Below the pieces are notes generated by a model. It did no database searches. It was given only the letters and a program-made list of their open reading frames with translations, and was not told the DNA's origin. Below are positions 1,693 to 23,342 of a DNA stretch of 64,000 nucleotides, one piece after another. Source of the DNA: Tateyamaria sp. syn59. GTDB lineage: Bacteria > Pseudomonadota > Alphaproteobacteria > Rhodobacterales > Rhodobacteraceae. Every line of letters begins with the position of its first letter. The first letter of the stretch is position 1. The position numbers were made by a program, and so were the translations under genes. The DNA lies in NCBI RefSeq assembly GCF_007995245.1, contig NZ_VCBA01000011.1, positions 1 to 64,000 of the forward strand. The letters run 5' to 3'.

Positions 1693-3825
1693 TTGAAAAC
1701 AAGGGTTCAATTTCAACGGGGGACATCCGACTGCGGTGTGGCATGTCTTGTCATGACCGCACAAATCCTCGGCGTTGAATATGACCTCGACGAAATTCAG
1801 CATCGTTTTTTCATTCCACCCAATGGAACCTCGCTCCTACACTTGGTGACCATCGCAGAGGGTCTCGGACTGTCCTGCCGCGCTGTGAAGGTCGATCACC
1901 GATCCTTGGACAAGGTTGACTTGCCGGCAATTCTGCATTGGGGCATGAACCATTACGTCGTGCTAGAGCGTATCAGCCGCGGCGCCTATCACATCCTTGA
2001 TCCCGCAAGTGGCCGTTTTGCGGTCAACAACTTGGAGTTGAAGGACAGGTACACCGGTGTCGCCGTCTCGGTATCTTTTGAGCGCGGCGCTGTGTCGCTC
2101 GATAGGATTGAAAGGCTGGGGATCATCGACGCCTTCAAGTTGGTGCCGAGCTGGAAACGTCGGCTTCTGGTGAGCGTCTGTGTGGGTGTTGTGCCGGCGT
2201 TGTCGGTCTTTGCATTCCCCATATTCCTGAGGATGGTCATGACCCACAGCGCTGTCGGGTTGAGCATGCAAGGCCTTATTTTGCTGACGGGGATTTTCAT
2301 CGCTGTGTCGTTGGCGTTTTTCTCCTTTGGCATGATCCGGTCCTACTTGATTGACGACCTATCCACCCGGATCGACGCACAGCTGGCACGCATGCTGCCG
2401 CGCGCGACACATGATATCTCCTACGAGCATTTCCTGAAGGTCTCGCGCAGCGGGGTTTTGGATGTCTTTTCCGATTTGCGCCAATTCCGAACAAACCTCT
2501 CTGCCGGTGCAGTTCAGATTGTAAGCAACGCGTCTGCTCTGCTGCTGCTGCTTGTGGGAGCGTTTTTCCTGAAGGTCTGGTTTGGCCTTGTCCTGTTGTG
2601 CTTTGCCGCTGTACATTTTTGGATCTCGCACGTGTCCCGTCTGTCGCGCGAGGAAGAACGTGAGCGGCTGCGTCGGTCGGAAAGCCGAGAAGCTATGATA
2701 TTGAACGAAAACTTCTCAAACTTTCAGACCTTGCGGCTGAACGCGGGTGAGACGCCGCGGTTGCGACTGTGGTGGGAACTCTATCGCGTCATCGGACAGC
2801 ACCGTATTCACGCTGACCTGCGCCTATCGGTCGAAAAGGCAACAATCGAGTTTTTGCGGGCTTTGTTGCGTGCTGCAGTTGTCATCGGCGCGGCTGTCCT
2901 GGTGATGAGCGGCACGGTTTCAATGGATCTGATGTTTGTGCTGGTGCTCGTAGCGATGTTGTTTTCTGCTTTCGTCACAAGCGTGATCGAGGATCTGGAG
3001 AAGCTCACCCTTGCCCGCGAGGCCCTGGCGCGCGCGAGCCTGATCTTGTCGGCCGAGCGCGATCCTATGCATCCCGGCGTGGTGCGCGCGGATCAAGAGA
3101 ACGATGATCCAGCAAGTGCGGCGCCTTTGATTTGGCCGTCCAGTCTAAACAAGACCGCTTTGCGGCTGTCTTCGTTGGCATACCGCTACGACCGAACATC
3201 CGACTATCTTTTTGAGGATCTCAGCGTTGAGGTGCGTCGCGGGGAAACTGTTTGCATTACGGGCTCGTCCGGAGTGGGCAAAACGACATTGCTGCGGCTG
3301 TGTGCGGGGCTGCAATTTCCAGAGAAAGGCCAGCTGTTCTGGTTTGGGCAGGATATGCGCCACATTCCGCGGCCGATGTTTGTCGAAACCGTTGGCTGCG
3401 TGTTGCAGGAAGACGGTACATTCTCCGGCACATTTGCTCAGAACATTGCGCTGTTTGACCCGGTGCTCGACGAGGCGCGCATGATCCAGGCGTGCGAAGA
3501 TGCTGTCTTGACCGATCTTTTGGAACGCCTGCCAATGGGTCTGTTTACCCCGCTGCACAGCAGTTCATTCCTCTCGACGGGAGAGAAGCACCGCCTAATG
3601 CTGGCCCGTGCGCTTTACCGCAACCCGGAGGTGCTTATCCTTGATGAAATGACCGGGAACCTGGATGCCGAGGTGGAAGATGTGTTGTTTCGGCGCCTAG
3701 CACGGCGGGGTGCGACACTCATCCTCACATCGCATCGCGAGCGAACGATTGGGCGAGCGGATCGCGTGGTCTCGTTGAGCCGCCGCCCGGGTGGCACTGC
3801 GGTCACAGCGCGCGCAACGTCATGA
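1693..3825 (+). CDS. C39 peptidase-containing ABC exporter (bacteriocin/RiPP exporter)
   Basis: Inner-membrane ABC transporter that cleaves double-glycine leaders and exports the core peptide. Numbered from TTG 1693: a C39 peptidase domain with oxyanion Gln8, catalytic Cys14 (in QRGTSDCGVACL), His87 (NHYVVL) and Asp103 (DPASG); a six-helix membrane domain at about 170-460; then an ATPase with Walker A GSSGVGKTTLL (about 523), signature LSTGE (about 627), Walker B VLILDEMTGNLD (about 648) and the switch His (about 680). Length (710 aa) fits the family. The open frame extends upstream to TTG 1597, but that extra segment is antisense to an eroded gene, and MKTRVQFQRG is a natural family N-terminus, so I prefer 1693. 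The next gene overlaps by ATGA. Its likely substrate is the peptide at 5536-5694. Confidence 0.93.
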   Translation: MKTRVQFQRGTSDCGVACLVMTAQILGVEYDLDEIQHRFFIPPNGTSLLHLVTIAEGLGLSCRAVKVDHRSLDKVDLPAILHWGMNHYVVLERISRGAYHILDPASGRFAVNNLELKDRYTGVAVSVSFERGAVSLDRIERLGIIDAFKLVPSWKRRLLVSVCVGVVPALSVFAFPIFLRMVMTHSAVGLSMQGLILLTGIFIAVSLAFFSFGMIRSYLIDDLSTRIDAQLARMLPRATHDISYEHFLKVSRSGVLDVFSDLRQFRTNLSAGAVQIVSNASALLLLLVGAFFLKVWFGLVLLCFAAVHFWISHVSRLSREEERERLRRSESREAMILNENFSNFQTLRLNAGETPRLRLWWELYRVIGQHRIHADLRLSVEKATIEFLRALLRAAVVIGAAVLVMSGTVSMDLMFVLVLVAMLFSAFVTSVIEDLEKLTLAREALARASLILSAERDPMHPGVVRADQENDDPASAAPLIWPSSLNKTALRLSSLAYRYDRTSDYLFEDLSVEVRRGETVCITGSSGVGKTTLLRLCAGLQFPEKGQLFWFGQDMRHIPRPMFVETVGCVLQEDGTFSGTFAQNIALFDPVLDEARMIQACEDAVLTDLLERLPMGLFTPLHSSSFLSTGEKHRLMLARALYRNPEVLILDEMTGNLDAEVEDVLFRRLARRGATLILTSHRERTIGRADRVVSLSRRPGGTAVTARATS

Positions 3826-4889
3826 TCTACCCCGTGGCGCCGCAGTTGATGGCAGACCTCGGTTTGATGCGGTTCCTCGTGCCGATGGAAGATGTCGATG
3901 GCGATGGGCGGTCACTACTGGAAGGCCGTTCAATCCTGAACCGACCGGCCCCAGGCGACTATCGGCAGTGCCGCTACCCGGGCAGCCGTCGGATGCATGC
4001 AAAGCCCATGAACGTCAAAGCGCTTTCGATTTACGTGTCGCAGCGCGACAGCGTCGACCACTGGATCTCTAGTATGTTGGGTGCGCAGCACATCAACCTC
4101 AGCGCCCCGCAGCGTTTTCTTTTCGCCAGCCACGCGGCCTACCATACACCGAAGCTATGGCTCTATGGACCTGAGGTGGGGCCGGTGCCCCCCGTCGTCG
4201 CAACGGCCGCGAAAATCTGTCACGGGGTTTATGAGTTGGCGTTGCATTGCGTGCGCCGGCACAGCGTCGCAGGCTTCGACCAAATGGATGCCGACGCGAT
4301 GATCCGCGATGCGGAAGCACATGACCGGTTGATCGGCCGCAATGAGGTCTGCGCCGGTCCACCTCCGATGATCCGCGAAACCCTGCGGCTCTTGCTTGGG
4401 GAGGTCCCAACCAAGTTTGCGGATGCGACGCCGGGGCCCGCGGATGTGGGGCGGGCGGTTTCCGTAATGCAGCTATATTGGCGGCTGGAGCGTCTCGCTA
4501 TCCTGAATACACTTGTTGGTCTGTCCACAAAGCGGGCCACGCTCGGGCGCGTGGTCACCTTTCCGAACGCGATCCGTGTCATTCAGGCAGTCCAGAGAAA
4601 TCAACCGCTGAGCACCAGTTTTGTGTCGGCCTATCAATGCGTCCCGCCAGCGGGCGCAGGCGATCTGGCGGCTGCAGACCGTCTGATGAAGCGGCATCGA
4701 GGTCTCTGGAGCCGGACGCCGGAAGAGATTGAGAACACGACTGCAAGTTCTTTGGAAAGCTTTTCAAAAGATATGGCCGATGTACTCGATATTTTACGTG
4801 AAACTGCGCGTGCATTTGGTGTGATTGAGCAGCGCGGACTTTGCTCGGCTCAACTGATCGAGTTCCTCTTTGGGAAGGTCAGGTCATGA
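3822..4889 (+). CDS. uncharacterised 355-aa protein of the peptide cluster
   Basis: I do not recognise this family. The gene overlaps the exporter stop by four bases (ATGA) and itself overlaps the following kinase gene by four bases, so the three are translationally coupled and probably act together. The product is soluble-looking, with no signal peptide or membrane helix. It has a Cys/His-bearing segment around residues 135-170 (ALHCVRRHSV, then DRLIGRNEVCAGPPPMI) and a helical C-terminal half (SFSKDMADVLDILRETARAF). A role in making or handling the exported peptide is inferred from position only. Confidence 0.75.
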   Translation: MIYPVAPQLMADLGLMRFLVPMEDVDGDGRSLLEGRSILNRPAPGDYRQCRYPGSRRMHAKPMNVKALSIYVSQRDSVDHWISSMLGAQHINLSAPQRFLFASHAAYHTPKLWLYGPEVGPVPPVVATAAKICHGVYELALHCVRRHSVAGFDQMDADAMIRDAEAHDRLIGRNEVCAGPPPMIRETLRLLLGEVPTKFADATPGPADVGRAVSVMQLYWRLERLAILNTLVGLSTKRATLGRVVTFPNAIRVIQAVQRNQPLSTSFVSAYQCVPPAGAGDLAAADRLMKRHRGLWSRTPEEIENTTASSLESFSKDMADVLDILRETARAFGVIEQRGLCSAQLIEFLFGKVRS

Positions 4890-5539
4890 TCATTGCTCTG
4901 AACGGTACCGTGAGCTGCGGAAAGAGCTATTTGGCGCAAGCGCTAAGCGATGCTATGCCCGCGGAGTTTCGGGGCGAGCCACCGATGAGCGATTGGCCAA
5001 ATGCGACACGGCTGCCCCAATCTCATCGCGATATTAAGGACCTGTTTCTGCGTTCCTGGCGTGTGAGCAATTTGCTTGAGGCGCAGGTTCTGTCCAAGCT
5101 CAAGGCAACAGTGATACTCGACAGTGTCTTCGATATACTTCACCACACGATCGTCACGCAAATTGAACCGGGCTTTTTCGGAAGCGGGCCTTATGCAAGT
5201 GTACTCGCAGACTGCGCTCGCCTGGACCATGAGCGTTTGCCGACCCCTGATGTTATCGTGAACGTAGTCGTATCTTGGGAAACCTGGCAAGACATGTGCA
5301 ACGCGCGGGGTTTGGATGACTTTTACCCCGATGCGCATCTGGCTAAGTTTTTTGCGCTTCAGGATGTTTTTCACGACGCCGCATGTCTGCGGGGTGAAGA
5401 GCTTGATATCCCGGTTTTGTGCTTTGAAAACAGGATAGCGGGTTCTGAGGACCTTTCCGAATTGGCAAAAACGCTGACGGTGCCCGGACTACGTAAATCC
5501 GGGCACCGCGGTACAAGTCGTGTGAATGTGCAGCTTTAG
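4886..5539 (+). CDS. P-loop kinase, deoxynucleoside/NMP-kinase-like
   Basis: A small (217 aa) P-loop phosphotransferase-like protein. The N-terminus MIIALNGTVSCGKSYLAQAL contains Walker A GTVSCGKS (residues 7-14). The strand VIVNVVVSWETWQDMCNARG in the C-terminal half resembles the substrate-release segment of deoxynucleoside and NMP kinases. ATG 4886 overlaps the stop of the preceding gene (ATGA); an in-frame start at 4841 would lie inside that gene and is less likely. The substrate cannot be read from sequence. With the NDK-like protein and the nucleotidyltransferases of this cluster it suggests nucleotide chemistry (inference). Its stop codon overlaps the convergent stop of the precursor gene. 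Confidence 0.78.
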   Translation: MIIALNGTVSCGKSYLAQALSDAMPAEFRGEPPMSDWPNATRLPQSHRDIKDLFLRSWRVSNLLEAQVLSKLKATVILDSVFDILHHTIVTQIEPGFFGSGPYASVLADCARLDHERLPTPDVIVNVVVSWETWQDMCNARGLDDFYPDAHLAKFFALQDVFHDAACLRGEELDIPVLCFENRIAGSEDLSELAKTLTVPGLRKSGHRGTSRVNVQL

Positions 5540-5694
5540 ACGGACCAACCGCCGCCGCCGCTGACGCTGGCGCTCATGCCGCGGCCACCGGACACCAGAA
5601 GCATCTCTTCCAGCGTCAGCTCGCGCACGTCCGCCTCGTCAAACTTTTCGACGAGATCCTTTTCGAGCTCGTTGCGTGCTTTTGCATCCTTCAT
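5536..5694 (-). CDS. candidate RiPP/bacteriocin precursor peptide with double-glycine leader
   Basis: A 52-residue peptide easily missed by gene finders. It starts at ATG 5694 after an excellent ribosome-binding site (AAGGAG, about 7 bases upstream). The charged leader (MKDAKARNELEKDL...) ends in ELTLEEMLLVSGG, matching the double-glycine consensus: Leu-12, Glu-8, Met-7, Val-4, Gly-2, Gly-1. Cleavage there would release the core RGMSASVSGGGGWSV: 15 residues, four Ser, one Trp, no Cys or Thr. It is the last gene of a minus-strand operon carrying the HlyD adaptor and modification enzymes, and it converges on the C39 exporter operon, the stops overlapping (TTAG). Leader type and context make it the natural exporter substrate. 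Which core residues are modified is unknown. Confidence 0.88.
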   Translation of the reverse strand: MKDAKARNELEKDLVEKFDEADVRELTLEEMLLVSGGRGMSASVSGGGGWSV

Positions 5695-5948
5695 CGGGGT
5701 CTCCTTTTGCTGTTGATGCCGTTATCGGCAGTGACAGTAAGATCCCGGTCGGCGTCATATTTCGCAACGAACTGGCAGCTGCGGCCTGCAGCTGTGCTTA
5801 AACCTGCACGTGTATCGGCGAAGCTTTGCTGATTCGTGTCCTGACCAATCGAAAACCGAATAAACGCACTGATTGTCGTTCCCATGCCGCGCAAACCGAC
5901 AGGCATGCTTTGGCTGCAAAAACGGATGCTGGCAGCAGTAGATTGCAT
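5691..5948 (-). CDS. small uncharacterised protein coupled to the precursor gene
   Basis: An 85-residue open frame that fills the gap between the HlyD stop and the precursor start. It begins 13 bases after the HlyD stop and its TGA overlaps the precursor ATG (ATGA), the arrangement of a translationally coupled gene. No family is recognised; there is no double-glycine motif, membrane helix or signal peptide. Two Cys are present (residues 11 and 57). It ends in a basic tail (SKRRPR), and the precursor's ribosome-binding site lies within its last codons. It could be an immunity or accessory protein, or a spurious frame in a leader region; spacing favours a real gene but the sequence does not prove it. 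Confidence 0.45.
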   Translation of the reverse strand: MQSTAASIRFCSQSMPVGLRGMGTTISAFIRFSIGQDTNQQSFADTRAGLSTAAGRSCQFVAKYDADRDLTVTADNGINSKRRPR

Positions 5949-5961: not shown

Positions 5962-7182
5962 TCAAAGATTAAGCCAGCTGCGGATGCCTCTGGATGTATG
6001 TATGTGGCCCCTGAAACCGTCGTTCACGTTGAGCGAAGCGGATGCAAAGCGCGTTGTGATTTCGTCCGGAGCAAGCAGAAGAACCCGGTACATGTTCGTT
6101 TCCGGATCGTGCTGTATATCAATGACATGCGTCGGCAGCACCCGGGTGCGACCGCCCTCCTGAAACGATATGCTGGCCTTTGCACCCACCGCAATGTGAT
6201 TGGCCTTGTCGCGGTCGAGCGCCGTTTCGAGCACGGGATTTGCGCCCTCCGGCACCATGACGGCCAAAGCACCGCCCTCCAACACCAGGGTGTCCGCTTC
6301 TGGTATGAAACGGACAGTGGCATCGCGCGGCGCGCGCAGGGTGACGATGCTGTCCTGCGCCAGCTGTCGCATCTCCTCCGTCAACCCTTCAATCCGATCC
6401 CTGGTTTGCAGGACCTGCATGCGTATCCGGTGTATCTCACTTTGAAACTCGAGGCCGTCCTGAATGCGCGACGCGATGGACGATGACAGAGAAACCTGTT
6501 GGTCGAGTATATTCGCGCGTGCATTCAGCGCCTCTATCTCCGTTTCCATCATCGAGACCTCTGAGGTCATGCCACGGTTCGACAGCTCCGCTGATATCTC
6601 TGAGATTTCGTCAAAACGCTCGGCAATGGCGTTCTCGCGCGAAACGCGCTCTTCTTGCTGCTGAAACGCTGTCGTGATCTCGGCGCCAAAGTCGTCATGA
6701 ATGGCACTGACGCCTGTGAGGCGTGTTTCCTGCTCGGCAAGTGCCTCACGGGCCAGATCAATCTTTCGCTGCAGCGCCGAGAGCCGGGTGGTGACCTCGT
6801 CTTCGTTGGTGAAGGCATCTGTCTTGCGGGCCATGACGAGTTGATCTCCGGTCCCGACAGCTTGACCAGGCTCGAACAGCCTTTGCTCGACAATCACATC
6901 GGTTTGCGTCGTCAGCCTTATCGGAAGCGGAGAGGTTGACAGCTTGAACGTCGCGGGAAGAGCCAATTGGACATAAAATACCATCGCAATGCTTGCTGCG
7001 GTGACAGCGATCAGGATAGCGGCAATGCATAGATAAAATCGACGTCGGGTTTGCCGGGATTTCAGTTCGCTTCGCAGGTCGCTGAGGAGGAAGTTGGTCG
7101 AGGCATAAGGATCATAGTCTTTGCTGAAGATGCGTCGCGCCTGCGCGGGCCGAGAGACATTGGCTTTGTTCATACGCCACAT
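5962..7182 (-). CDS. HlyD-family membrane fusion protein (bacteriocin secretion accessory protein)
   Basis: Periplasmic adaptor that couples the C39 ABC exporter to an outer-membrane channel. From ATG 7182: a cytoplasmic N-terminus, one membrane helix at about 49-71 (FYLCIAAILIAVTAASIAMV), a short lipoyl/barrel segment (VIVEQRLFEPGQAVGTGDQL), a long coiled coil (about 125-265), then the second half of the lipoyl/barrel region (VTLRAPRDATVRF, about 280) and the C-terminal barrel. The start could also be ATG 7173; the open frame runs further upstream into the preceding gene. No TolC-like gene is present, so a general TolC is presumably used. It lies in the same operon as the precursor. Confidence 0.9.
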   Translation of the reverse strand: MWRMNKANVSRPAQARRIFSKDYDPYASTNFLLSDLRSELKSRQTRRRFYLCIAAILIAVTAASIAMVFYVQLALPATFKLSTSPLPIRLTTQTDVIVEQRLFEPGQAVGTGDQLVMARKTDAFTNEDEVTTRLSALQRKIDLAREALAEQETRLTGVSAIHDDFGAEITTAFQQQEERVSRENAIAERFDEISEISAELSNRGMTSEVSMMETEIEALNARANILDQQVSLSSSIASRIQDGLEFQSEIHRIRMQVLQTRDRIEGLTEEMRQLAQDSIVTLRAPRDATVRFIPEADTLVLEGGALAVMVPEGANPVLETALDRDKANHIAVGAKASISFQEGGRTRVLPTHVIDIQHDPETNMYRVLLLAPDEITTRFASASLNVNDGFRGHIHTSRGIRSWLNL

Positions 7183-7195
7183 GTGCCGCCCACGA

Positions 7196-8275
7196 TCAGG
7201 ATACCTGTTCCTGTAGCCGAAGTAGACCGCTGCGCGCGAGGCTACCATAGGCCTGTTCCAACTGTGCCGTCGTGACTTCTGGCGGCAGCTTTATCTGTCC
7301 GTTAGAACCCCTGAGCTTGGGTTGGCATGCCAGGCAAGCTGCTAGCTCCGACAGTTCGAACTGTCGGTCGACAGTTTTGCAGAAGTACCGATCGTTGATC
7401 TGCAGGATGAAAAGAGGACTTGATCTATTGTGACTCGGGACCTGCAACCCTGATACAGCATCTCCGTTGGAGAGGCTGACCATCTCGCGCCTACCAAAGA
7501 GGATGTCCCATTGTACGACCTGGTGGCAGGACCAGATTTCATGCACCCAATCCGTCCACTCCGGGGTGCCAAGAGCCTCTGGGCGCAGCAGAAGATTGCG
7601 GTAAGTGGCATAGTACTTTTCGGCCAGTTCGCTCTTGCGCCGCAGACGTTTGGGAAGCCACTTCGCCTTGCGGTAGGTGTCGCCTTTCTGGATCAAAAGG
7701 CACTCTAGCTCGGATCTAAACAGGCTTTGCAGCAGCTCAGTGATCAGGGCCGGTTCGCCATCCTCTAAAGCGCCGAGATAATCGAGAAAGAGCGACAGGG
7801 ACATGTCGCGTTGCCCATCGAACAAACGCTCTGCATAGGTTTGCCTGACTTCGTTGGTGATGAGCTCGTCGAATTGCTCGTTCCCATATAGGCGCTTTGA
7901 ATTCATGACGCTCTCCAGACTGATGGACTCCTGCGAGTGAACTGACAGATCGATCTTCTCGAGGTGCCTGATCAGGCGGGACCATTCCGACTTGCGCATC
8001 AAAAGCGCTTTGATGTTGCGCGCGGCGTGGTTATAGCTCTGGCGAACCGATGGCGTATTCATCGGGTAGCTAACGTCGTCCAGCACAACCCATGCATCCA
8101 AATTCGATGTGGTATTTGATAGTTCTGCTGCCGTTGACCCGGTGATGGCGCTAATCACCAGGCTTTCCGCGAACGTCTCCCTTGCCCAGCTCTGCACCGT
8201 GTTCTCGGCACCGGTAGAAACGGCCGGACTTGGGCGCGTAACAGCCACGGATTTGTCGGAGCCCCCAGCTGTCAT
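7196..8275 (-). CDS. nucleotidyltransferase-fold protein with degenerate active site and PqqD-like C-terminus
   Basis: Paralogue of the protein at 16264-17358. Residues 38-66 (ESLVISAITGSTAA..., then TSNLDAWVVLDD) align with that protein's GS...SDVD nucleotidyltransferase motif, but the first catalytic Asp is Asn58 while the second (Asp60) remains, so catalysis by the usual mechanism is unlikely. A shared middle block (LFRSELECLLIQKGDTYRKAKW) follows. Residues about 285-357 (YFCKTVDRQFELSELAACL, ending LARSGLLRLQEQ) resemble PqqD, the RiPP recognition element fold. I infer a leader-binding or regulatory pseudo-enzyme that may pair with its active paralogue. ATGA overlap with the ATP-grasp gene. 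Confidence 0.7.
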   Translation of the reverse strand: MTAGGSDKSVAVTRPSPAVSTGAENTVQSWARETFAESLVISAITGSTAAELSNTTSNLDAWVVLDDVSYPMNTPSVRQSYNHAARNIKALLMRKSEWSRLIRHLEKIDLSVHSQESISLESVMNSKRLYGNEQFDELITNEVRQTYAERLFDGQRDMSLSLFLDYLGALEDGEPALITELLQSLFRSELECLLIQKGDTYRKAKWLPKRLRRKSELAEKYYATYRNLLLRPEALGTPEWTDWVHEIWSCHQVVQWDILFGRREMVSLSNGDAVSGLQVPSHNRSSPLFILQINDRYFCKTVDRQFELSELAACLACQPKLRGSNGQIKLPPEVTTAQLEQAYGSLARSGLLRLQEQVS

Positions 8276-9519
8276 GCCGCGAGCTCCTCAACCGCGAGTT
8301 CAAAGGCCTCATGCACCTGCCGCATGCGTTGCGCTACTTCGCCAGGTGTCTCGCCTTCTATGAAAACCCAACCAGTACAGTTGAAAGATGAGGCTGGCAG
8401 GGGCTGCAGTACGTCACCCTGCTTGATCGGTAGGTGTACGCCGATGACGCCCTCCATCGCCATGAGGGCAGCTTCGGATGTGATGTGCCGAACGTAACCG
8501 GTACGATACGGCAATAGCAGATCGCCGACACAACTCTGACGGGTAAAGACTGGGGTCGGGCGCAGGCCAAGGTAAGTGTCCAGCGTTGCCCCTGCGATAT
8601 CGAACCCCAATGCAAGGCCATGATTTCGCGCAATTTCACACCCGGGATAGCGCAGGGCCAGCTCTCCGAAAGTCAGCCGGCTGCCGTCCGAAGAGATAAA
8701 GACCTCCATATGCAGATATCCGTGCGGCAGCTCAAATGCGTCTACCACGCGCTGGACCATCTCGCGCAGATCAGCAAACGGGATATGGCTGTGGTCTTTC
8801 CCAACACTTATGTTTGCATTGAGCGAACCCTGCGCCGCATCGACGGGCCGCGAAGGCATCAGCGAGGGAAAGACATGCAGCACCTCGCCCTCGGCTATGA
8901 GCGCACATAGTTCATATTCCTCATCCTGGATGAAGGCCTCAACCATCATGTCAAAGGGGCCCGCAGCGATTGAAACACTCTCCAGATCGTTCGCGCTTTT
9001 GAGGACCGTTGTGGACAAGGTTCCCCAGCCGTTCACAGGTTTTAGAACGATGGGAAATCCATGCAGGTGTACGAAGTTGTGGAGGTCACGCAGGGTCTTA
9101 ACATGTGCGAACGGTGCGGTGGCGAAGCCCGCGCGGTTCAGCCGCGCCTTCATCGTAGGTTTGTCGCGCAGCGCGCGCGCAACATCCGCAGGTAGCCCTC
9201 CGACGCCCACAGCATTCGCGAAAGCTTGCCAGAACTCCTGATCTGGCTCGGACATGCAACAGAAACTGTCGGGCTTGAGCCCTTTGGGCTTGCACCAGTC
9301 CTTGAACCGCGCTGCCTCGGCTCGAACACCTGCGGACAGGTCGATGGCAAAGACATCCATGTCGCGGGTTCGGTCCAGGTACTCGGGGTCGTGGATTTTG
9401 AGGTCCGGCCGTAGCAGGATGGGGCGTACATCTCTGCGAGTAAACAGTGCATCATTGAAAGAACACGGGCGATTTGATGTGCAGGGCCTGTCGTCGGGAA
9501 AAATGAGGTGTCGTTTCAT
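8272..9519 (-). CDS. ATP-grasp ligase (carboxylate-amine ligase type)
   Basis: ATP-grasp enzyme of 415 aa that should join a carboxylate to an amine through an acyl phosphate. Core motifs: DKPTMKARLNRAGF (about 119-132), HGFPIVLKPVNGWGT (Lys160 for ATP), MVEAFIQDEEYEL (191-203) and a C-terminal FTRQS...GYVRHI...VFIEGETP region like the L-amino acid ligase/carbamoyl-phosphate-synthase-like branch rather than the microviridin type. ATG 9519 (MKRHLIFPDD) with an upstream GAGG is chosen; a further 276 upstream bases are open but belong to the preceding gene. In this cluster it could couple an amino acid, perhaps the aminomutase product, to another unit (inference). Confidence 0.85.
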   Translation of the reverse strand: MKRHLIFPDDRPCTSNRPCSFNDALFTRRDVRPILLRPDLKIHDPEYLDRTRDMDVFAIDLSAGVRAEAARFKDWCKPKGLKPDSFCCMSEPDQEFWQAFANAVGVGGLPADVARALRDKPTMKARLNRAGFATAPFAHVKTLRDLHNFVHLHGFPIVLKPVNGWGTLSTTVLKSANDLESVSIAAGPFDMMVEAFIQDEEYELCALIAEGEVLHVFPSLMPSRPVDAAQGSLNANISVGKDHSHIPFADLREMVQRVVDAFELPHGYLHMEVFISSDGSRLTFGELALRYPGCEIARNHGLALGFDIAGATLDTYLGLRPTPVFTRQSCVGDLLLPYRTGYVRHITSEAALMAMEGVIGVHLPIKQGDVLQPLPASSFNCTGWVFIEGETPGEVAQRMRQVHEAFELAVEELAA

Positions 9520-9529
9520 CGTTGCAACC

Positions 9530-10789: not shown

Positions 10790-10792
10790 CGC

Positions 10793-13436: not shown

Positions 13437-13466
13437 GAAACTCCTGCCTATGTGTGATTGGCGTCC

Positions 13467-16267: not shown

Positions 16268-17358
16268 CGACCGTAGGCACGCAGACCTGCACAGATGGTT
16301 CGGCGTCCAGTTTTCCGGCCGAAGAGCCATATGCGCAATTTGGTCAGGCAATCGTCACGGCGGCGAAGGAGCGCTACGGCGAGGCTCTGCGGGCTATTGC
16401 ATTGACTGGTTCACACGCCTGGGGCTTCGCGACGGATCGTTCTGATGTCGATCTGATCGCGCTGCTTGATGGTGCTGCGGTGCCCGCGGATCGGATCGGA
16501 CGCTATGACGTCATCGTTTCGCAGGGGCGCCACGCCGAAATCCTTATCGTTGATCAGGATTACACCGCCAAGCTGTCTGCGACGCTGAACGCCACGCGCA
16601 GGCTGGACGGTTCTTTCGATCAACTCGAATTGGTAGAGAAAATGCGCACTGCCATCGTTCTATATGGGCAGCAGTCATGGCACGCTTGTACAAGCCAGTT
16701 TGACTATGCCCGACTTGCACGGCTGCACTATGCCTATCATATGGCGTCGGCCGCCAGTTTTTTCGATGACTGCGTCGGCGCGTTTGATGCCCACCCTCTG
16801 ACAGCGATCAGCGCGGCACGGCTTTGCCTCTATCATCAGATGGAGGCGCTGCTTTGTCAGCGTGGCGATACCAACGGGCGTCGCAAGTGGATTTTCCGGC
16901 GACTTGAAGGTCACGACGTGCGGTCTGAGCTGGCCGAAGGATTTCTACGCTATCAGTTCCGCATGGAAGCCGTCACCGAAGACGAGATGAGGGCTTGGGC
17001 CGGGGGCATGCTCCGCTTTTCCCAGGCCCTTGGTCGCGAGGTGCTCGCGGAAGGAAGCTGTTGGCCTCCGGTGCAGCATGGACCCGATGAGGGTCAGCCG
17101 TTCATCACGCCAGACGCAGTTTTCCTCAGCCATCTCGGCAAGGTGATTCTGGTGAAAACTGCCGATCGCTCCTTTCAGCTCGACTTGCCGAGCATGGCAT
17201 TGCTGGCTCTATGTCATGAGCCCCGGTCAGAGGCGGCCCTTCTCGCCCAGGTTTCTGCTTTGCATCCTGACACTGATATTGTCTCGCGGCTGTTTCATCT
17301 GCGCGCGATAGGTCTGCTGCGAGAAGCCGAAACAGTCAAAGCACATCGCGAGCCATAG
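16264..17358 (+). CDS. nucleotidyltransferase with PqqD-like (RRE-type) C-terminal domain
   Basis: Pol-beta/MNT-type nucleotidyltransferase: ALRAIALTGSHAWG then RSDVDLIALLDG, giving Gly49-Ser50 and the metal-binding Asp61/Asp63; a third carboxylate may be in HAEILIVDQD (about residues 90-99). A helical middle domain (about 130-240) includes LYHQMEALLCQRGDTNGRRKW. The last about 75 residues (GKVILVKTADRSFQLDLPSMALLALC... ending HLRAIGLLREAE) resemble PqqD, the winged-helix fold that binds RiPP leaders. The enzyme probably transfers an NMP group; leader binding by its C-terminus would direct it to the precursor (inference). It is the catalytically intact partner of the protein at 7196-8275. Confidence 0.75.
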   Translation: MTTVGTQTCTDGSASSFPAEEPYAQFGQAIVTAAKERYGEALRAIALTGSHAWGFATDRSDVDLIALLDGAAVPADRIGRYDVIVSQGRHAEILIVDQDYTAKLSATLNATRRLDGSFDQLELVEKMRTAIVLYGQQSWHACTSQFDYARLARLHYAYHMASAASFFDDCVGAFDAHPLTAISAARLCLYHQMEALLCQRGDTNGRRKWIFRRLEGHDVRSELAEGFLRYQFRMEAVTEDEMRAWAGGMLRFSQALGREVLAEGSCWPPVQHGPDEGQPFITPDAVFLSHLGKVILVKTADRSFQLDLPSMALLALCHEPRSEAALLAQVSALHPDTDIVSRLFHLRAIGLLREAETVKAHREP

Positions 17359-17368
17359 GAGAGAGGTT

Positions 17369-18451
17369 TTGCAGCAGCCCTCCACTGCACCCACTGGCAG
17401 TATCACCCATCCAAAGGGATCAGATGGTGCAAAGGCCTGTGTTGACCGGGCGCGTTTTGCCGCCATCGGGCGGCAGCTTTTGGTCAACGACTTCGGAATT
17501 TCTGCCGACCGAGTTAGGAACGTGACGTTCGCCCTGTTCTTTCCAGAGGCCGCCGTATCCCGCAAGTTTGGCACGGCGCTTGAATACTTGGCATCACATG
17601 GCTTTCATCCAATCTATGGCGGGTCCATCGACATCTGTTTCGATACGGTTGCAACCATCCGCAGCCATGATGAACAGGCGCCAAAAGAACTCCCGCCGCT
17701 GCTGGTGCGGGTCATGCGCATGATCTTTGAACAGGGCGTGTCGCCGATGGTGATCATGCTCGAAAAACCAGGATGCAAAGACGCCTGTGCCTCAAGCCTG
17801 CTCAGCCGGAGCAAGGGGTCCGTGTTCAAGGGAGACCGCCGTCAAGATCATCTGCGCACCGTTCTGGGTAGCAAATGCGCAGCGTTCAAATTCCTTCATG
17901 CTCCCGATCATTCCGATGCGCTCATGTGGGAATTGGGTATCCTTCACTTGGCTCATCCTGACCTGCACAATCTGATGCGGCGCTATGACAGTCGAGATGA
18001 CGCGCTGCACCATATCGCCGAGACACTCACGACCCAGCCATTCAACCCTCTGACTCTGTCCCAGTCCGTCACCCGCACACGTGATGTCTTAAAACAAACG
18101 GAGCCAGGGACGCACGCGCTTGGCCAAGAACTGGACCGGCTGATTGCGGTCGGGCAGGGCGATTGGAGTGAGCTCATTGTCGGCCTCGAAGCTCTTGGTG
18201 GAAGTGTTCAGGTCGACCCTTGGGATGTAATCACGCTCGCCGCGCATTTTACGCAAGTCGATTGGAGTCGCGATTTATCTGAGCTGAAACATCAATACCG
18301 GGCAATGGCTGCACACGATCAGACCCAAGCACTTCGCCTGATCTATGACACGCTGCGCGACCGGGGGTTCCGGGGCGACTGGCCTCTTTTTTTAAACAGC
18401 TGTGCGGCGCTCGATGCACAAGAACAGAGCGGTGCGTGTGATCAAACCTGA
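17369..18451 (+). CDS. nucleoside diphosphate kinase-like domain protein
   Basis: A 360-residue protein starting at TTG 17369, preceded by AGGAG. Residues about 50-194 follow the NDK pattern: RVRNVTFALFFPEAAVSRKF in place of the usual KPDA strand (the Lys is lost), HGFHPIYGGSIDI, SPMVIMLE, and KFLHAPDHSDALMWELGIL, in which His177 occupies the place of the phospho-histidine in N-x-x-H-G-S-D. The C-terminal about 165 residues are unrecognised. It might be an altered phosphotransfer enzyme or a nucleotide-binding protein. It sits directly after the nucleotidyltransferase, which fits a nucleotide-related role. Confidence 0.55.
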   Translation: MQQPSTAPTGSITHPKGSDGAKACVDRARFAAIGRQLLVNDFGISADRVRNVTFALFFPEAAVSRKFGTALEYLASHGFHPIYGGSIDICFDTVATIRSHDEQAPKELPPLLVRVMRMIFEQGVSPMVIMLEKPGCKDACASSLLSRSKGSVFKGDRRQDHLRTVLGSKCAAFKFLHAPDHSDALMWELGILHLAHPDLHNLMRRYDSRDDALHHIAETLTTQPFNPLTLSQSVTRTRDVLKQTEPGTHALGQELDRLIAVGQGDWSELIVGLEALGGSVQVDPWDVITLAAHFTQVDWSRDLSELKHQYRAMAAHDQTQALRLIYDTLRDRGFRGDWPLFLNSCAALDAQEQSGACDQT

Positions 18452-19325
18452 TGTGACGGCTTTGACGCGCTCTCAGTTGGACCGGCTGCGCTGTTTCCTG
18501 GTGTCTCACGATGTTATTGCAGCGCTTCCATTCCTAAAACATCTGGATCGGATCGCATCGTCATCTGCGTCACCAGTCGACTGGTTTGTGTTGAACTCAC
18601 CCTCTGACCTTAAAGGTGTCATGGCGCGTCTACACCATGGGCATGTCGCCATACATACACTAGCGCCTGCCGCCGCTGAACAAATAATGGAGCAAGCGAG
18701 TTGGGCCACGTTCACCTCGCCAGCTAAGGGGCTGATCGGGGCTGCACCAGTTATCGACGCCTGCCTTGCAACATCCATGCTGCGCGACCAGTCCATAGCA
18801 CGACATGAACGCGAGCAGGCGTTTGCAATATCGCTCCAAGCGCATTGCGAGCGCGCTGGTTCCGGCGCGTTGTTGCGTGAAGCGTGCCTGGGAGATGTCC
18901 GTGGGCTTTGTTCCAACACACTCACGACATGGCTGAGCGATTTTGCGCATGAGACCGGTCATACCGGGCCGGATCCGGCTTTAAACGCAAATGTCGGGGA
19001 AATGGCAAAGGTACTTGTCGCTAGCAAGGATACTTTTGTTTTGTGGCACCGCGAACAGCCCGTCTCCATGTGCCGCTTTTGCGATTTCCGCCACGGTTTG
19101 GCACATGTCGGAGGCGTCTGGACACCGCCAGAGCATCGCGGTCGCGGGCATGCTACAACCCTTCTTAGGCAGGCTTTGCAGGTGGCGTATCAACGCGGCG
19201 CAAGGCAGGCGTGCTTGCGTACCGGTTCTGCAGAAGCAGCGCGTCTATACCAAAGAATCGGCTTTGAGCGGGTCGACGACTTTTGCGTGGTGACCTGGCG
19301 CCATCCCTATGCACCGATAAACTAG
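18414..19325 (+). CDS. GNAT-family N-acetyltransferase
   Basis: A 303-residue protein with a C-terminal GNAT domain: LAHVGGVWTPPEHRGRGHATTLLRQAL (acetyl-CoA binding loop) and RLYQRIGFERVDDFCVVTW. The N-terminal about 170 residues are specific to this protein and may bind the acceptor. It overlaps the preceding gene by about 38 bases if started at ATG 18414; GTG 18402, 18432 and 18438 are also possible. It is the last gene of the SHMT-like operon; its TAG overlaps the convergent stop of the APH-type kinase gene (CTAG). A second acetylation step or an immunity role by acetylating the product is possible. Confidence 0.82.
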   Translation: MHKNRAVRVIKPDVTALTRSQLDRLRCFLVSHDVIAALPFLKHLDRIASSSASPVDWFVLNSPSDLKGVMARLHHGHVAIHTLAPAAAEQIMEQASWATFTSPAKGLIGAAPVIDACLATSMLRDQSIARHEREQAFAISLQAHCERAGSGALLREACLGDVRGLCSNTLTTWLSDFAHETGHTGPDPALNANVGEMAKVLVASKDTFVLWHREQPVSMCRFCDFRHGLAHVGGVWTPPEHRGRGHATTLLRQALQVAYQRGARQACLRTGSAEAARLYQRIGFERVDDFCVVTWRHPYAPIN

Positions 19326-20218
19326 ACGTTCTGTGTATCCGCCACGTCCAGCACGCGGCGCAAACCGTTCCACGTACAAGGAGGCGCATCGTCGTCAGCA
19401 TTGAATGCCGCAAAGACTGCCCGCTGACCCAGAACAATCGGAAAGCATGTCGCAAGAAGCGCGCGATCTAAGCGTGCGCAAGTTTCGTTGTCGTGGGTCA
19501 TTGCGGCCTGCGCCAAAACGGCTTTCGGCTCCAGCGGTGTGGCGCTGCGCAAGAGATGATCTGCGCATAGCCCAGCTAAGTCCCACTCTCGCGGAGCCCG
19601 GATCGCATTGGTGAAGTCAATGAGCCACGGCGTGTCGTCACTGGAGCGCCAAACGATATTGGAACTGCCATAGTCGTTGTGACACAGGTGATGCGTGTCA
19701 TAGGGCCGCCATGGTTGTCCTTTCGCAAAGAGTTTGGTCAAACGTTTTAGCAAATCCTGTGGTACTGAGCCTAAACGCTCCAGGCACATTTTTGCATCTT
19801 GCCACAGCCAGTCATCTGATCGTGGCGTGCGAAAGTCAGCCGAGGCGATATGGATAGTGGCCATCAGTTTGACCACGCGCGGAAAGACCTCCGTTCCGTC
19901 AAGGGTTGGGCGGACCGGTCCCTCAATCCAGTCGTAAACCGTTGCGAGTGTTCCGTCCTGCTGCTTGATGAAACGCGAGCCGTCGCGGGTTGTCCGGTAC
20001 CGCGGCACAGGAAGCTTCGACGTGTAAAGATGCGACACAAAGGCCAACTCGGTTGATAGCTCACCAATGTCCGCGTCCGCCGGGTAGATCTTGATTGCGC
20101 TATCCACTACGGAGCCAACGGCCCGGATCACTTGGCAGCGTGTTGGCGACTGCTGCTCATGTAAATCCACGCGTCCAAGGTTAAAAACCCGCAGGACTTC
20201 ATCAAAGTCTTCGCGCAT
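19322..20218 (-). CDS. APH-type phosphotransferase
   Basis: Aminoglycoside phosphotransferase/choline kinase-like fold, 298 aa. ATP lysine Lys43 (AIKIYP), catalytic loop HLCHNDYGSSNIVW with Asp182 and Asn187, metal Asp201 in LIDFTNA. Such kinases phosphorylate hydroxyls on small molecules. It is the last gene of a minus-strand operon that begins with the leucyl-tRNA synthetase and follows the hydroxylase gene by 6 bases. It could phosphorylate a biosynthetic intermediate, or inactivate the product for self-protection. Not separable by sequence. Confidence 0.85.
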   Translation of the reverse strand: MREDFDEVLRVFNLGRVDLHEQQSPTRCQVIRAVGSVVDSAIKIYPADADIGELSTELAFVSHLYTSKLPVPRYRTTRDGSRFIKQQDGTLATVYDWIEGPVRPTLDGTEVFPRVVKLMATIHIASADFRTPRSDDWLWQDAKMCLERLGSVPQDLLKRLTKLFAKGQPWRPYDTHHLCHNDYGSSNIVWRSSDDTPWLIDFTNAIRAPREWDLAGLCADHLLRSATPLEPKAVLAQAAMTHDNETCARLDRALLATCFPIVLGQRAVFAAFNADDDAPPCTWNGLRRVLDVADTQNV

Positions 20219-20224
20219 CTCCCG

Positions 20225-20782
20225 CTATGCGGCTTGCGCCATCGCGGCATCTAGATGCTGCCTGACCCAGTCATTGACCACGCAGTCTATCACCAAATGA
20301 ACACGCGCAGCGTCACCATCGTTTCTGAGGCTGTGAGGGCGGAGCGTATCGACGTACCAAACCTCGCCTGGGCTTAACCTCAGACGCTCACCATCAACGA
20401 TGAATTCCACTTTGTCGTTGGTAATGATGGGAACGTGCAAGCGTATCTGGTCGGGTGTGTTTTCCGCCGCTTCATCCGTGTGCTCACCGATGGCGGCGCC
20501 AGGATGTAGAACCAATAGGCGCACTCTAAAGAGATCACATTGGAAGCTATCCATGACCTCTTTGAAGTACAGGGTGTCCGAAACAACAGGCGTGTCCTGA
20601 TAACTCACGCCACTGAACTCCATGGTTGTCGGATCGCCATCGTGAGAACGCAGTGCAATCCCGGACCAGTTCTTTCCTTTGCGTTCGATGACCGGCTGCC
20701 AAAGCGTATCTGAGACCCGGTTGAGGCTGTCCAACAGTTGGGTTTCAGAGAAATTCAGATTGAAACGTGCGGCGGCTGGCAT
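20225..20782 (-). CDS. aspartyl/asparaginyl beta-hydroxylase-like oxygenase
   Basis: Fe(II)/2-oxoglutarate oxygenase of the aspartyl/asparaginyl beta-hydroxylase family, 185 aa. Metal ligands GEHTDE (His101, Asp103) and RPHSLRN (His150), with Arg160 (AARVHLVID) in the 2-oxoglutarate position. Family members hydroxylate Asp/Asn or related side chains; the short cupin form is common in natural-product clusters. The core peptide has no Asp or Asn, so the substrate may be a free or tethered amino acid. Located 25 bases downstream of the leuS-like gene and 6 bases before the kinase gene. Confidence 0.86.
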   Translation of the reverse strand: MPAAARFNLNFSETQLLDSLNRVSDTLWQPVIERKGKNWSGIALRSHDGDPTTMEFSGVSYQDTPVVSDTLYFKEVMDSFQCDLFRVRLLVLHPGAAIGEHTDEAAENTPDQIRLHVPIITNDKVEFIVDGERLRLSPGEVWYVDTLRPHSLRNDGDAARVHLVIDCVVNDWVRQHLDAAMAQAA

Positions 20783-20807
20783 GTCGTAGAAAAATCCTCA
20801 AATCATG

Positions 20808-23342
20808 TCATCCTTTGACGACAAAGTTGACGAGTTTATCTCTGATAGGAATTTCCCGTAAAACGGTAACTTGGTCAAGCAAGGCCGCCACCTTCTCGTC
20901 AGATTTGACGACGTTCAGCAGATCTTCGCCAGCAAGGTTTGGTGCGGCCATAACCCGGGCGCGAATTTTCCCGTTAATTTGAATGGGATACTCCTTCAGC
21001 TCCGCATCAGCGGCATCCAGCGCATCCTCGGCGACGCTGGGCCAGGGCGCATAAGCGATGCTTGTCTCGTGTCCCAGTGCGCCCCAAAGCTCTTCGGCCA
21101 TGTGTGGCGCAAAGGGGGCTAGAACCAGGATGAACTGTTCGATCACGAACCGTGGACGCCGGGACATTGGTGTCAGGGTGTTGGTCATTTCCATCAGACG
21201 CGCAACGCAGGTGTTAAAGCGCAGTTCTTCAATGTCCGACGTGACCGCCGCGATCATTTTCTGAAGCTGACCGTTAAGAGCCGCATCGGGTGCCTCGTCT
21301 GTCAGGCGTGCCATGTCGACATTGTCGTCATCGTCATGGACAAGACGCCAGACACGATTGAGAAAGCGCCTCACACCCGCGATGCTGGCCGTGTCCCATG
21401 GCTTGGTCGCTTCGAGTGGCCCCATGAACATGGCATAGAGCCGAACGCTGTCAGCTCCGAATTCGCGCACGACGTCGTCTGGATTGACGACGTTGAACCG
21501 CGACTTGGACATCTTTTCGATCTTCTGAACCAGTTCCTTGCCGTCGGCATAGAACTTGCCGCTGCTTTCTTCCACTTTTTCGGGCTCATAAAAGCGTCCT
21601 TGCGCGTCGCGATAGGAATGCGCCAGGATCATTCCTTGGTTGAACAGCTTCTGGAATGGCTCGGCTGTGGAAACCAGCCCGAGATCATACAGCACCTTGT
21701 GCCAGAACCGTGCGTAAAGCAGGTGCAGCACCGCGTGCTCGGCCCCACCCACATAGAGATCAACTGGCATCCAATAGCGTTCTTTTTCTGTGTCTACGAA
21801 TGCTAGATCGTTGTTTGGATCGATAAACCGCAGATAGTACCAGCATGATCCGGCCCATTGTGGCATGGTATTCAGATCCCTGCGGCCGGGCTTCCCGGTT
21901 GTCGGGTCAGTTGTCTGAACCCAATCGGTGGCCCTCGCAAGTGGCGGTGCGCCGTCGGGGCCTGGTCCGTATTCCTCCAGCTTGGGCGGCAGCAGAGGCA
22001 GGTCCTGATCTGGAACCGTGGAATAAGAGCCATCCTCACCGTGTATGATCGGGATCGGCTCGCCCCAGTATCTCTGGCGCGAAAAGAGCCAATCGCGCAG
22101 GCGGTAGGTGACCTTTGCCTGCCCTGCTTTTTCGGTTTCAAGCCATTCGATGACCTGCGCCTTGGCTGCATCGACGTCCAGGCCGTCGAGAAAACTGGAA
22201 TTCACGAGTGTGCCATCGCCTGTCCAGGCCTCTGCCTGAACGTCGTGGCCTTCTTCTGGCGTGACGACCTCGATAATGGGCAGCTCGAACTTGCGGGCGA
22301 ACTCGTGGTCGCGCGTATCGTGGGCCGGGACGGCCATGACAGCGCCGGTGCCGTAGTCCATCGTGACATAGTCCGCGACCCAGATAGGGGTCTTTGCCCC
22401 GTTCACGGGGTTGATGGCGTACGCGCCTGTGAATGCCCCGGTCTTGTCGCGGTTCAACTCACTTCGTTCGAAGGACGATAGCTTGGCCGTCTCGCTTACA
22501 TAGGTCTGAACCGCTTCGCGCTGTTCGGGCCGAGTGATCGCATCAACAAGCGGATGTTCCGGCGCGAGAACGCAATATGTGGCGCCAAAGAGCGTATCGG
22601 GGCGAGTGGTGAACACCTTCACCTGCGCATCGCTGCCCTCGATTGCAAAGCTGATCTCGGCCCCGTGAGACTGTCCGATCCAGTTCCGCTGCATCGCCTT
22701 GATGCCGTCGGGCCAGTCGAGATCATCCAGATCATCCAGCAGCTTTTCGGCGTAGGCGGTTATCTTGAGCATCCACTGACGCATCAGGCGGCGCTCGACC
22801 GGATCGCCGGTTTCGATGTATTTGCCGTCCTTAACCTCTTCGTTGGAAAGAACGGTGCTTTGCGCCGGGCACCAGTTCACAGCGACCTCGGCTTGGTAGG
22901 CAAGATTGTTTTCAACCAGTTTGAGGAAGATCCACTGGGTCCATCTCACGAAGTCCGGAGATGTAGTTGCCAGTTCGCGTGACCAGTCATATGAAAAGCC
23001 AAGCCGCTGGATCTGCGCGCGGAAGGTGTCAGTGTTTTCCTTTGTTGTGATTGCTGGGTGAATCCCGGTCCGCATCGCATAGCGCTCAGCTGGCAGCCCA
23101 AAGCTGTCCCACCCCATGGGATGCAGCACGTTGAACCCTTTCATCCGCTTGTAGCGGCTTACGATATCCGTAGCTGTGTACCCTAGTGGGTGCCCCACAT
23201 GGAGACCAGCACCCGAAGGATAGGGAAACATATCCAGCACATAGTATTTCTGCTTGGTCTGATCGACCTCGGCACGAAATATGTCGTTTCTGGCCCAGAA
23301 GTCCTGCCATTTGGGTTCGATCTGTTCCGGTGCGTAGGGCAT
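20808..23342 (-). CDS. leuS: leucyl-tRNA synthetase, non-alphaproteobacterial type
   Basis: Complete class I leucyl-tRNA synthetase of 844 aa: HVGH signature His48-His51 (MFPYPSGAGLHVGHPLGY), editing domain with TTRPDT and VPAHDTRDHEFA, KMSKS at about 609. Housekeeping LeuRS of Rhodobacteraceae normally reads MFPYPSGRIHMGHVRNY at the signature. The GAGLHVGHP form here is typical of other phyla, so this is probably a second, transferred copy. It leads an operon with the hydroxylase and kinase of the peptide cluster. That is the pattern of target-duplication immunity, as known for agrocin 84 (AgnB2); supply of Leu-tRNA to the pathway is the alternative. Start ATG 23342 (MPYAPEQIEPKWQ) rather than the 51-codon upstream extension. 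Confidence 0.93.
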   Translation of the reverse strand: MPYAPEQIEPKWQDFWARNDIFRAEVDQTKQKYYVLDMFPYPSGAGLHVGHPLGYTATDIVSRYKRMKGFNVLHPMGWDSFGLPAERYAMRTGIHPAITTKENTDTFRAQIQRLGFSYDWSRELATTSPDFVRWTQWIFLKLVENNLAYQAEVAVNWCPAQSTVLSNEEVKDGKYIETGDPVERRLMRQWMLKITAYAEKLLDDLDDLDWPDGIKAMQRNWIGQSHGAEISFAIEGSDAQVKVFTTRPDTLFGATYCVLAPEHPLVDAITRPEQREAVQTYVSETAKLSSFERSELNRDKTGAFTGAYAINPVNGAKTPIWVADYVTMDYGTGAVMAVPAHDTRDHEFARKFELPIIEVVTPEEGHDVQAEAWTGDGTLVNSSFLDGLDVDAAKAQVIEWLETEKAGQAKVTYRLRDWLFSRQRYWGEPIPIIHGEDGSYSTVPDQDLPLLPPKLEEYGPGPDGAPPLARATDWVQTTDPTTGKPGRRDLNTMPQWAGSCWYYLRFIDPNNDLAFVDTEKERYWMPVDLYVGGAEHAVLHLLYARFWHKVLYDLGLVSTAEPFQKLFNQGMILAHSYRDAQGRFYEPEKVEESSGKFYADGKELVQKIEKMSKSRFNVVNPDDVVREFGADSVRLYAMFMGPLEATKPWDTASIAGVRRFLNRVWRLVHDDDDNVDMARLTDEAPDAALNGQLQKMIAAVTSDIEELRFNTCVARLMEMTNTLTPMSRRPRFVIEQFILVLAPFAPHMAEELWGALGHETSIAYAPWPSVAEDALDAADAELKEYPIQINGKIRARVMAAPNLAGEDLLNVVKSDEKVAALLDQVTVLREIPIRDKLVNFVVKG

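Follow-up and report, generated by a model that had tools for sequence, protein, structure and literature searches.

A packed gene cluster of Tateyamaria sp. syn59 with a double-glycine precursor peptide, an unfamiliar enzyme set and the only leucyl-tRNA synthetase found in the genome

The first 64,000 nucleotides of contig NZ_VCBA01000011.1 of Tateyamaria sp. syn59 (Rhodobacteraceae, assembly GCF_007995245.1), the stretch analysed here and in the following termed the window, carry between positions 1693 and 23342 a cluster of 20 open reading frames (ORFs) in packed operons. It comprises the gene of a 52-residue peptide with a double-glycine leader, a C39-peptidase exporter, an unfamiliar set of enzymes and a leucyl-tRNA synthetase (LeuRS) of foreign origin, which is the only LeuRS found in the genome, the native leuS gene having decayed. 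With some reserve, we favor the interpretation that the cluster directs the synthesis of a ribosomal, leader-guided and exported peptide which inhibits LeuRS, and that the cluster LeuRS confers immunity. The more far-reaching proposal of a new class of ribosomally synthesized and post-translationally modified peptides (RiPPs), leader-guided, nucleotidylated and carrying beta-arginine, which would act as Trojan-horse LeuRS inhibitors and whose cluster would be tied to the host through its sole LeuRS, is advanced tentatively and is rated as rather unlikely.

The cluster LeuRS and the decay of the native leuS gene

The LeuRS encoded at 20808-23342 on the minus strand (TIGR00396, 1073 bits, over the cut-off) belongs to an accessory clade of foreign origin. 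When 37 genomes were searched for LeuRS, syn59 (4.57 Mb in 56 contigs, completeness 100) returned a single match, namely the cluster copy, and each of 19 congeners one. Of 18 congener enzymes compared, 17 share 80-94% identity with that of genome G001, and all 18 share 36-38% with the cluster enzyme. In three congeners the native site was read, and leuS is located there between a DUF3576-like gene and lptE-holA, gene names being taken from the sequence and from an annotated Sphingomonas counterpart. In syn59 holA (94% identical) lies on contig C5, where synteny with the congeners is preserved on either flank and the leuS slot harbors a remnant of about 1.4 kb in place of 2.56 kb. The blocks of this remnant are distributed over three frames and correspond to residues 1-121, 234-260, 269-441, 468-494, 504-525 and 776-852 of the G001 protein, each forward frame being interrupted by 7 to 15 stops. 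DNA identity to G001 amounts to 67-77% per block, as compared to 82% and 84% for the flanking genes. Residues 122-233 and 526-775 have no counterpart, and the KMSKS motif (residue 623) is thus lost. Since the native gene is decayed and the genome contains no other LeuRS match, the cell, as read from the assembly, depends on the cluster LeuRS for an essential function, unless a further LeuRS is hidden in an assembly gap.

Within the cluster, leuS is the first gene of a minus-strand operon and is followed by the genes of a hydroxylase-like enzyme and an APH-type kinase at distances of 25 and 6 bases. The initial annotation listed leuS in this operon correctly but missed its meaning, as this is no ordinary housekeeping gene located nearby by chance. 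A housekeeping leuS in its usual place is ruled out by the location of the native site on contig C5 and its decay, and a second LeuRS beside the native one, as in Agrobacterium radiobacter K84, by the single match in the genome. The cluster LeuRS, which keeps KMSKS, is closer to the LeuRS of T. thermophilus (PDB code 1h3n, 771 bits) than to AgnB2, the second LeuRS of K84 (5ah5, 602 bits), and these bit scores rule out that it is an AgnB2 orthologue.

Relatives of the cluster enzyme are found on plasmids. Among the best 20 of 264 matches in PLSDB are plasmids of Rhizobium anhuiense T24, which is presumably the trifolitoxin producer, Agrobacterium tumefaciens G3/79, Sinorhizobium B11 and R. leguminosarum TP16; the plasmid LeuRSs are 58-65% identical to the cluster enzyme, and a partial one is found on pTiCA74_95. 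Among the matches listed from 384 further genomes of the class, the LeuRS of G786 ranks first (69%), followed by those of G479 (63% over part of the protein) and G511 (60%). In a tree of 26 LeuRSs, which leaves out AgnB2, the cluster enzyme groups with four plasmid enzymes and that of G786 (support 100/99), and this clade is placed inside a larger group containing Bacillota enzymes, apart from the native alphaproteobacterial LeuRSs. To judge from these sequences, the accessory clade is passed among alphaproteobacteria and is able to supplant the native LeuRS gene, a behavior that fits a resistance gene. The plasmid LeuRS genes, including the partial one on the Ti plasmid, are candidates for genes of resistance to LeuRS inhibitors. 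In G786 the LeuRS gene lies near ABC and fatty-acid-type genes, as named from sequence reading.

Precursor peptide and export

The precursor gene (5536-5694, minus strand) is preceded by the ribosome-binding site AAAGGAG. The leader ends in ELTLEEMLLVSGG and the predicted core, RGMSASVSGGGGWSV, has a length of 15 residues. Of the 638 small ORFs of 30-110 codons in the window, no other shows a double-glycine-leader motif, irrespective of whether a strict or a relaxed pattern is applied, while 40 order-2 Markov shuffles yielded chance expectations of 0.025 and 0.1 per window, respectively. A possible small ORF of 85 codons at 5691-5948 on the same strand may be only leader RNA; a single point speaks for it, its ATGA overlap with the precursor gene, its Pfam match lying below the cut-off. 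Of all gene calls in the cluster, those of the small ORFs are the least secure.

The exporter (1693-3825, plus strand, with an alternative start possible at 1597) matches PF03412 (5e-31), ABC_tran and ABC_membrane over cut-off and is the sole PF03412 match in the genome. It contains Q..DCG..C, H and DPASG, which we take to be the C39 active-site motif, and is classified as a C39-peptidase ABC exporter of the bacteriocin type. Its best NCBIfam model is TIGR03796 (NHLM) with 302.6 bits against a cut-off of 853, and it stays below the cut-off in the best 25 of 192 models. Upstream of the precursor on the minus strand, an HlyD-like periplasmic adaptor is encoded at 5962-7248 (TIGR01843 5e-8 and PF13437 0.0057, both below cut-off). 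When 10 of the 20 cluster proteins were compared with PADLOC, the exporter matched defence models (best mad3, 6e-24), as did the nucleotidyltransferases described below (1e-7 to 4e-3); these matches are put down to shared domains and a defence system was discarded.

The nucleotidyltransferase pair

Two paralogous nucleotidyltransferases with 22% identity (E 9e-13) are encoded in different operons. The protein encoded at 16264-17358 on the plus strand (PF01909 0.003, below cut-off) retains GS..DVD, presumably the nucleotidyltransferase catalytic motif, whereas its paralogue (7196-8275, minus strand) has GS..NLD at this position, thus the first catalytic aspartate is lost and the protein appears degenerate. 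Alignment of residues 263-364 of the former with a PqqD alignment by hhalign gave a P-value of 1.7e-4 and a probability of 49 over 62 columns, the PqqD alignment consisting of 19 sequences from 30 loci, as the others were shortened, weak or near-copies. In a control with 115 windows of 100 residues from cluster proteins, residues 251-350 of the same protein ranked first (probability 20), and the best unrelated window reached 5.9. The C-terminal segment may hence be a PqqD-like, leader-binding (RRE) domain, which the alignment suggests but does not prove. According to PMC10036551, such a domain is found on a modifying enzyme in half of the prokaryotic RiPP classes. An AlphaFold2 model of this protein, calculated from a two-row alignment, was too poor for a fold search (pLDDT 49).

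Aminomutase, ligase and further enzymes

By the curated cut-off, the protein encoded at 11673-12839 (minus strand) is assigned as a true arginine 2,3-aminomutase: it scores 619 bits with TIGR04468 (cut-off 600) and 402-403 bits with the glutamate and lysine models, under their cut-offs of 650 and 525. The enzyme itself is a radical SAM enzyme, a point on which the initial enzyme list requires amendment; its statement that a SPASM-type enzyme is lacking holds, as the score with one SPASM model is 20.7 bits (cut-off 395) and those with other radical SAM models are likewise weak and far under cut-off. No LanB/C, YcaO, ThiF or SPASM-type enzyme is assigned to the cluster proteins by Pfam or by the best 25 NCBIfam models of the longest match lists.

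The ATP-grasp protein (8272-9519, minus strand) resembles L-amino-acid ligases. Its start codon is the ATG at 9519, and the searches employed either 8272-9516 or a longer ORF extending to 9795. It matches PF18603 (LAL_C2, 7e-10) and PF02222 over cut-off, and its best solved structure is the L-amino acid ligase 4wd3 (1e-20), presumably RizA, a ligase selective for arginine. Streptomyces pyxinae (L059:7457-15052) carries the closest aminomutase (64%), and downstream of it come a DegT-like gene, one for an ATP-grasp protein (41% identical to that of the cluster) and an MFS-like gene, the DegT-like and MFS-like names being sequence readings. The Streptomyces locus also includes a radical-SAM-like gene. 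Because aminomutase and ATP-grasp protein co-occur in both places, these two cases suggest that the ligase uses beta-arginine.

An enzyme of the SHMT superfamily, dependent on pyridoxal phosphate, is encoded at 13458-14855 on the plus strand (PF00464 4e-22). It scores 185 bits with the SHMT model and 179 bits with the fluorothreonine transaldolase model, about equal and both below cut-off, and among its PDB matches the 'threonine aldolase' 7k34 ranks third behind two SHMTs; the enzyme may well act as a transaldolase. The hydroxylase-like protein of the leuS operon (20225-20782, minus strand; PF05118 1e-16, over cut-off) is an Asp/Asn-hydroxylase-like, 2-oxoglutarate-type enzyme with the L-proline cis-4-hydroxylase 4p7w as best PDB match (4e-7). 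The neighboring APH-type kinase (19322-20218, minus strand; PF01636 5e-14), a GNAT acetyltransferase (18402-19325, plus strand; PF00583 5e-12) and an Eis-like GNAT acetyltransferase (9530-10789, minus strand; PF17668, PF13527 and PF13530) all match over cut-off. A P-loop kinase-like protein (4886-5539, plus strand) shows weak CPT/dNK-like matches below cut-offs (PF07931 0.011, PF01712 0.02).

The nucleoside-diphosphate kinase (NDK)-like protein (17369-18451, plus strand) has no Pfam match and is placed by distant relatives, that is 24.8% identity to a Streptomyces plasmid protein annotated as nucleoside-diphosphate kinase and 27-31% to an NDK-like protein of genome G212.

Proposed product and immunity

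In the favored interpretation, the 52-residue precursor would be modified while its leader is still attached. The nucleotidyltransferase would add a nucleotidyl group, guided by its possible PqqD-like domain and with the inactive paralogue as partner. Beta-arginine would be provided by the aminomutase and joined to an amine by the ATP-grasp ligase, as the gene pair suggests, and the transaldolase-like enzyme, the hydroxylase and the kinases would build or decorate the remainder of the product. In this view, the peptide may bear a hydroxylated amino acid in addition to beta-arginine and the nucleotidyl group. By family, the C39 exporter would cleave after the double glycine and export the product together with HlyD. 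Translation in the host would run on the cluster LeuRS as immunity, and the GNAT and APH enzymes may contribute detoxification. If this holds true, the target of a natural product could be deduced from the genome while the product itself is still unseen, and a peptide-type LeuRS inhibitor would exist. Furthermore, a self-immunity gene would have replaced an essential housekeeping gene, so that a cell losing the cluster could no longer translate, and the same LeuRS clade on Rhizobiaceae plasmids without the cluster would naturally confer resistance to compounds of this kind.

A foreign LeuRS gene heading an operon inside a biosynthetic cluster, together with the loss of the native gene, is most simply explained by self-immunity against a product that inhibits LeuRS. 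Several observations weigh against this explanation. The core peptide contains no leucine, and resistance of the cluster LeuRS is unreadable from its sequence, since KMSKS is kept and the enzyme is nearer to an ordinary LeuRS than to AgnB2. The PqqD match is weak, its probability falling to 33 when the paralogue is included and to 20 for a slightly shifted window, while the paralogue by itself reaches 2.2. A second genome with the block was not found in the searches described below, so that conservation lends no support to the borders or to the membership of leuS. At the four plasmid loci, tblastn revealed no cluster genes other than leuS, bar a generic ABC match. The LeuRS of G786 (C1:879290-881824) is of the accessory type only and has no cluster, and the congener G515 possesses another type; as G786 shows displacement with no cluster nearby, displacement alone is no proof of a link to the cluster.

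The occurrence of the same LeuRS clade on Rhizobiaceae plasmids and, as the sole LeuRS found, in G786, as well as the failure to find a second cluster carrying leuS, would also agree with a genuine RiPP-like cluster in which leuS is an independently acquired and unrelated passenger, either neutral or conferring resistance to environmental compounds, that displaced the native gene. This explanation is considered unlikely, as leuS heads an operon with two biosynthetic-type enzymes at the short distances given above within a packed block, and the stand-alone copies would easily be explained as resistance to a LeuRS inhibitor. Rather doubtful, too, is a product that is no RiPP but a small-molecule nucleoside or amino-acid antibiotic, with the double-glycine peptide belonging to a separate bacteriocin or being a chance ORF. 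The aminomutase, the ATP-grasp, SHMT-like and NDK-like proteins, the kinases and the GNATs would suit a nucleoside-type antibiotic, and NDK-, nucleotidyltransferase-, kinase- and MFS-like genes stand together in G212, with no match to the aminomutase. Moreover, agrocin 84 (PMC5059758) and albomycin (PMC9032320) are not ribosomal peptides, and both inhibit aminoacyl-tRNA synthetases. On the other hand, the precursor gene shares the block with a dedicated C39 exporter and an HlyD-like protein, the single motif-bearing ORF among the 638 small ones exceeds the chance expectation, and the nucleotidyltransferase bears a possible PqqD-like domain. Improbable, finally, is a juxtaposition of two or more unrelated loci, such as a bacteriocin locus (1693-8275) and a metabolite locus (8272-23342). 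Five operons on alternating strands and the lack of a recurrence binding the halves together would be compatible with such an arrangement; yet each half contains one of the two nucleotidyltransferase paralogues, and a 4-base overlap spans the proposed boundary.

Comparison with known systems

Two precedents are established: a resistant LeuRS serves as immunity to agrocin 84, where AgnB2 is a second, non-essential LeuRS of the producer K84 (PMC5059758), and microcin C is a RiPP that kills via an aminoacyl-tRNA synthetase (PMC7136475). As in the agrocin 84 system, the gene set of the cluster includes a LeuRS from outside the lineage, and in K84 the immunity role of its counterpart AgnB2 has been demonstrated; AgnB2, however, has KQSKS, in contrast to KMSKS in the cluster LeuRS (PMC5059758). 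In syn59, moreover, the native leuS is a remnant, and the cluster adds a peptide precursor and a C39 exporter. With microcin C (PMC7136475), the cluster would share a ribosomal peptide, nucleotidyltransferase and acetyltransferase genes and a putative aminoacyl-tRNA synthetase target. In contrast to microcin C, no MccB/ThiF-type enzyme appears among the Pfam and NCBIfam matches listed for the cluster proteins, the precursor comprises 52 residues with a double-glycine leader rather than the bare heptapeptide of the short, leaderless MccA, and a presumably resistant synthetase takes the place of MccF. On the features compared, membership of the agrocin 84 or microcin C family fails, although the logic would be the same.

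Blasticidin-type pathways use an arginine 2,3-aminomutase, and the cluster aminomutase likewise exceeds the TIGR04468 cut-off. Contrary to these pathways, no cytosine-nucleoside genes are recognised in the cluster, and an ATP-grasp ligase is found nearby, as in S. pyxinae. Precursor, C39 ABC exporter and HlyD-like protein are shared with double-glycine microcins and NHLP-type RiPPs, whereas the exporter, as mentioned above, stays below the NCBIfam cut-offs, and to our knowledge the modifying enzymes of the cluster differ from those known in these groups. The combination of enzymes is not known from any RiPP class described so far, as far as the open-access literature reaches. In the open-access literature, no paper was found that joins RiPP, nucleotidyltransferase, leader peptide and aminomutase, or BlsG and arginine, and for LeuRS and RiPP nothing related was found, as judged by titles and the beginnings of abstracts.

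Searches for related clusters

The initial annotation had proposed a RiPP-like cluster with an unfamiliar enzyme set and suggested that conserved blocks in other genomes would delimit it. The first part is borne out by the precursor, the C39 exporter, the lack of LanB/C, YcaO, ThiF or SPASM assignments and the possible PqqD-like domain, and a match to a known characterised cluster was not found. A conserved block was not found either, the searches each sampling a small part of the existing genomes and the scan of all contigs using the aminomutase only. None of the 19 congeners has the aminomutase; weak, out-of-context matches were obtained with the active nucleotidyltransferase in 2 of 393 other genomes and with the NDK-like protein in 1 of 397.

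The scan of genome contigs yielded 67 aminomutase loci, 58 at 41-49% identity and nine at 56-64%, the latter comprising S. pyxinae, a cyanobacterial 3-kb contig and seven Xenorhabdus loci. A specific cluster gene accompanies the aminomutase solely in S. pyxinae; nine other loci contain generic ABC, SHMT or LeuRS genes and the rest none. The Xenorhabdus aminomutases (L061-L067) are 56-59% identical to that of the cluster, and in L061 and L066 sequence reading points to the gene order ruvB-like, aminomutase, aminotransferase-like and then very large genes resembling non-ribosomal peptide synthetases (NRPS).

In plasmid searches with five cluster-specific proteins, four remained without match and the NDK-like protein had one at 25%. 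The SHMT-like protein matched 196 plasmid records, none with an identity of at least 60%. The annotated surroundings of the NDK match and of one SHMT match (an NRPS region) on Streptomyces plasmids are unlike the cluster. Among viral contigs, two of three proteins found no match and the aminomutase one at 46%.

Two gene groups were noted in the course of these searches. In G212, which is of the same family (contig C14, L175:287-7683), MFS-, nucleotidyltransferase-, P-loop kinase-, formyltransferase-, class III aminotransferase-, NDK- and amidohydrolase-like genes, so named from sequence reading, are grouped and possibly make a nucleotide-type metabolite. In G328 (contig C21, L136:9620-17133) a nucleotidyltransferase weakly related to the active one of the cluster lies near genes read as MFS-like and alanine-racemase-like.

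Organization and surroundings of the cluster

All genes named in the initial annotation are present in the order and on the strands given there, in packed operons around one double-glycine peptide, and the overlaps it pointed to are found in 12 of the 19 neighboring pairs (4-53 bases). Overlaps of 15-53 bases assume the longest possible ORFs and may be reduced by later starts. Six further pairs are spaced by 3-25 bases and one by 195, the sole larger gap, which follows the aminomutase gene. The kinase-like and precursor genes, as well as the GNAT and APH genes, overlap tail to tail by 4 bases, and the gene of a DUF6165 protein (13035-13478, minus strand; PF19662 1.6e-8, over cut-off) and the SHMT-like gene are oriented divergently.

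Three further proteins are of weak or no family assignment. The protein encoded at 3822-4889 (plus strand) has no Pfam, NCBIfam, PADLOC or plasmid match, and its AlphaFold2 model from a single sequence was too poor for a fold search (pLDDT 40.5). A gene is likewise present at 14816-16267 (plus strand), but the former label 'GT-like' is not supported, as its product matches no family over cut-off, and neither a convincing relative of solved structure nor a plasmid match was found. A GT9-like protein (10793-11725, minus strand) matches PF01075 weakly (0.013, below cut-off).

The window starts at base 1 of its contig and the left edge of the cluster lies close to it, hence the left border cannot be placed from this contig. 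GC composition reveals no clear island boundary and no sharp edge on the right side of the cluster, there are no tRNA genes in the window, and the first 24.5 kb have no megablast match in PLSDB. To the right, 39500-64000 matches Ruegeria and Yoonia plasmids over the longest stretches (75-76% identity, 9-11% of the query), and long matches at 71-73% (about 72%) DNA identity to the region right of the cluster are present in 8 of the 18 congener genomes searched. Directly adjoining the cluster, 23645-29203 encodes a sigma-54 PAS regulator and a nitrate-type ABC transporter, the latter named from sequence reading.

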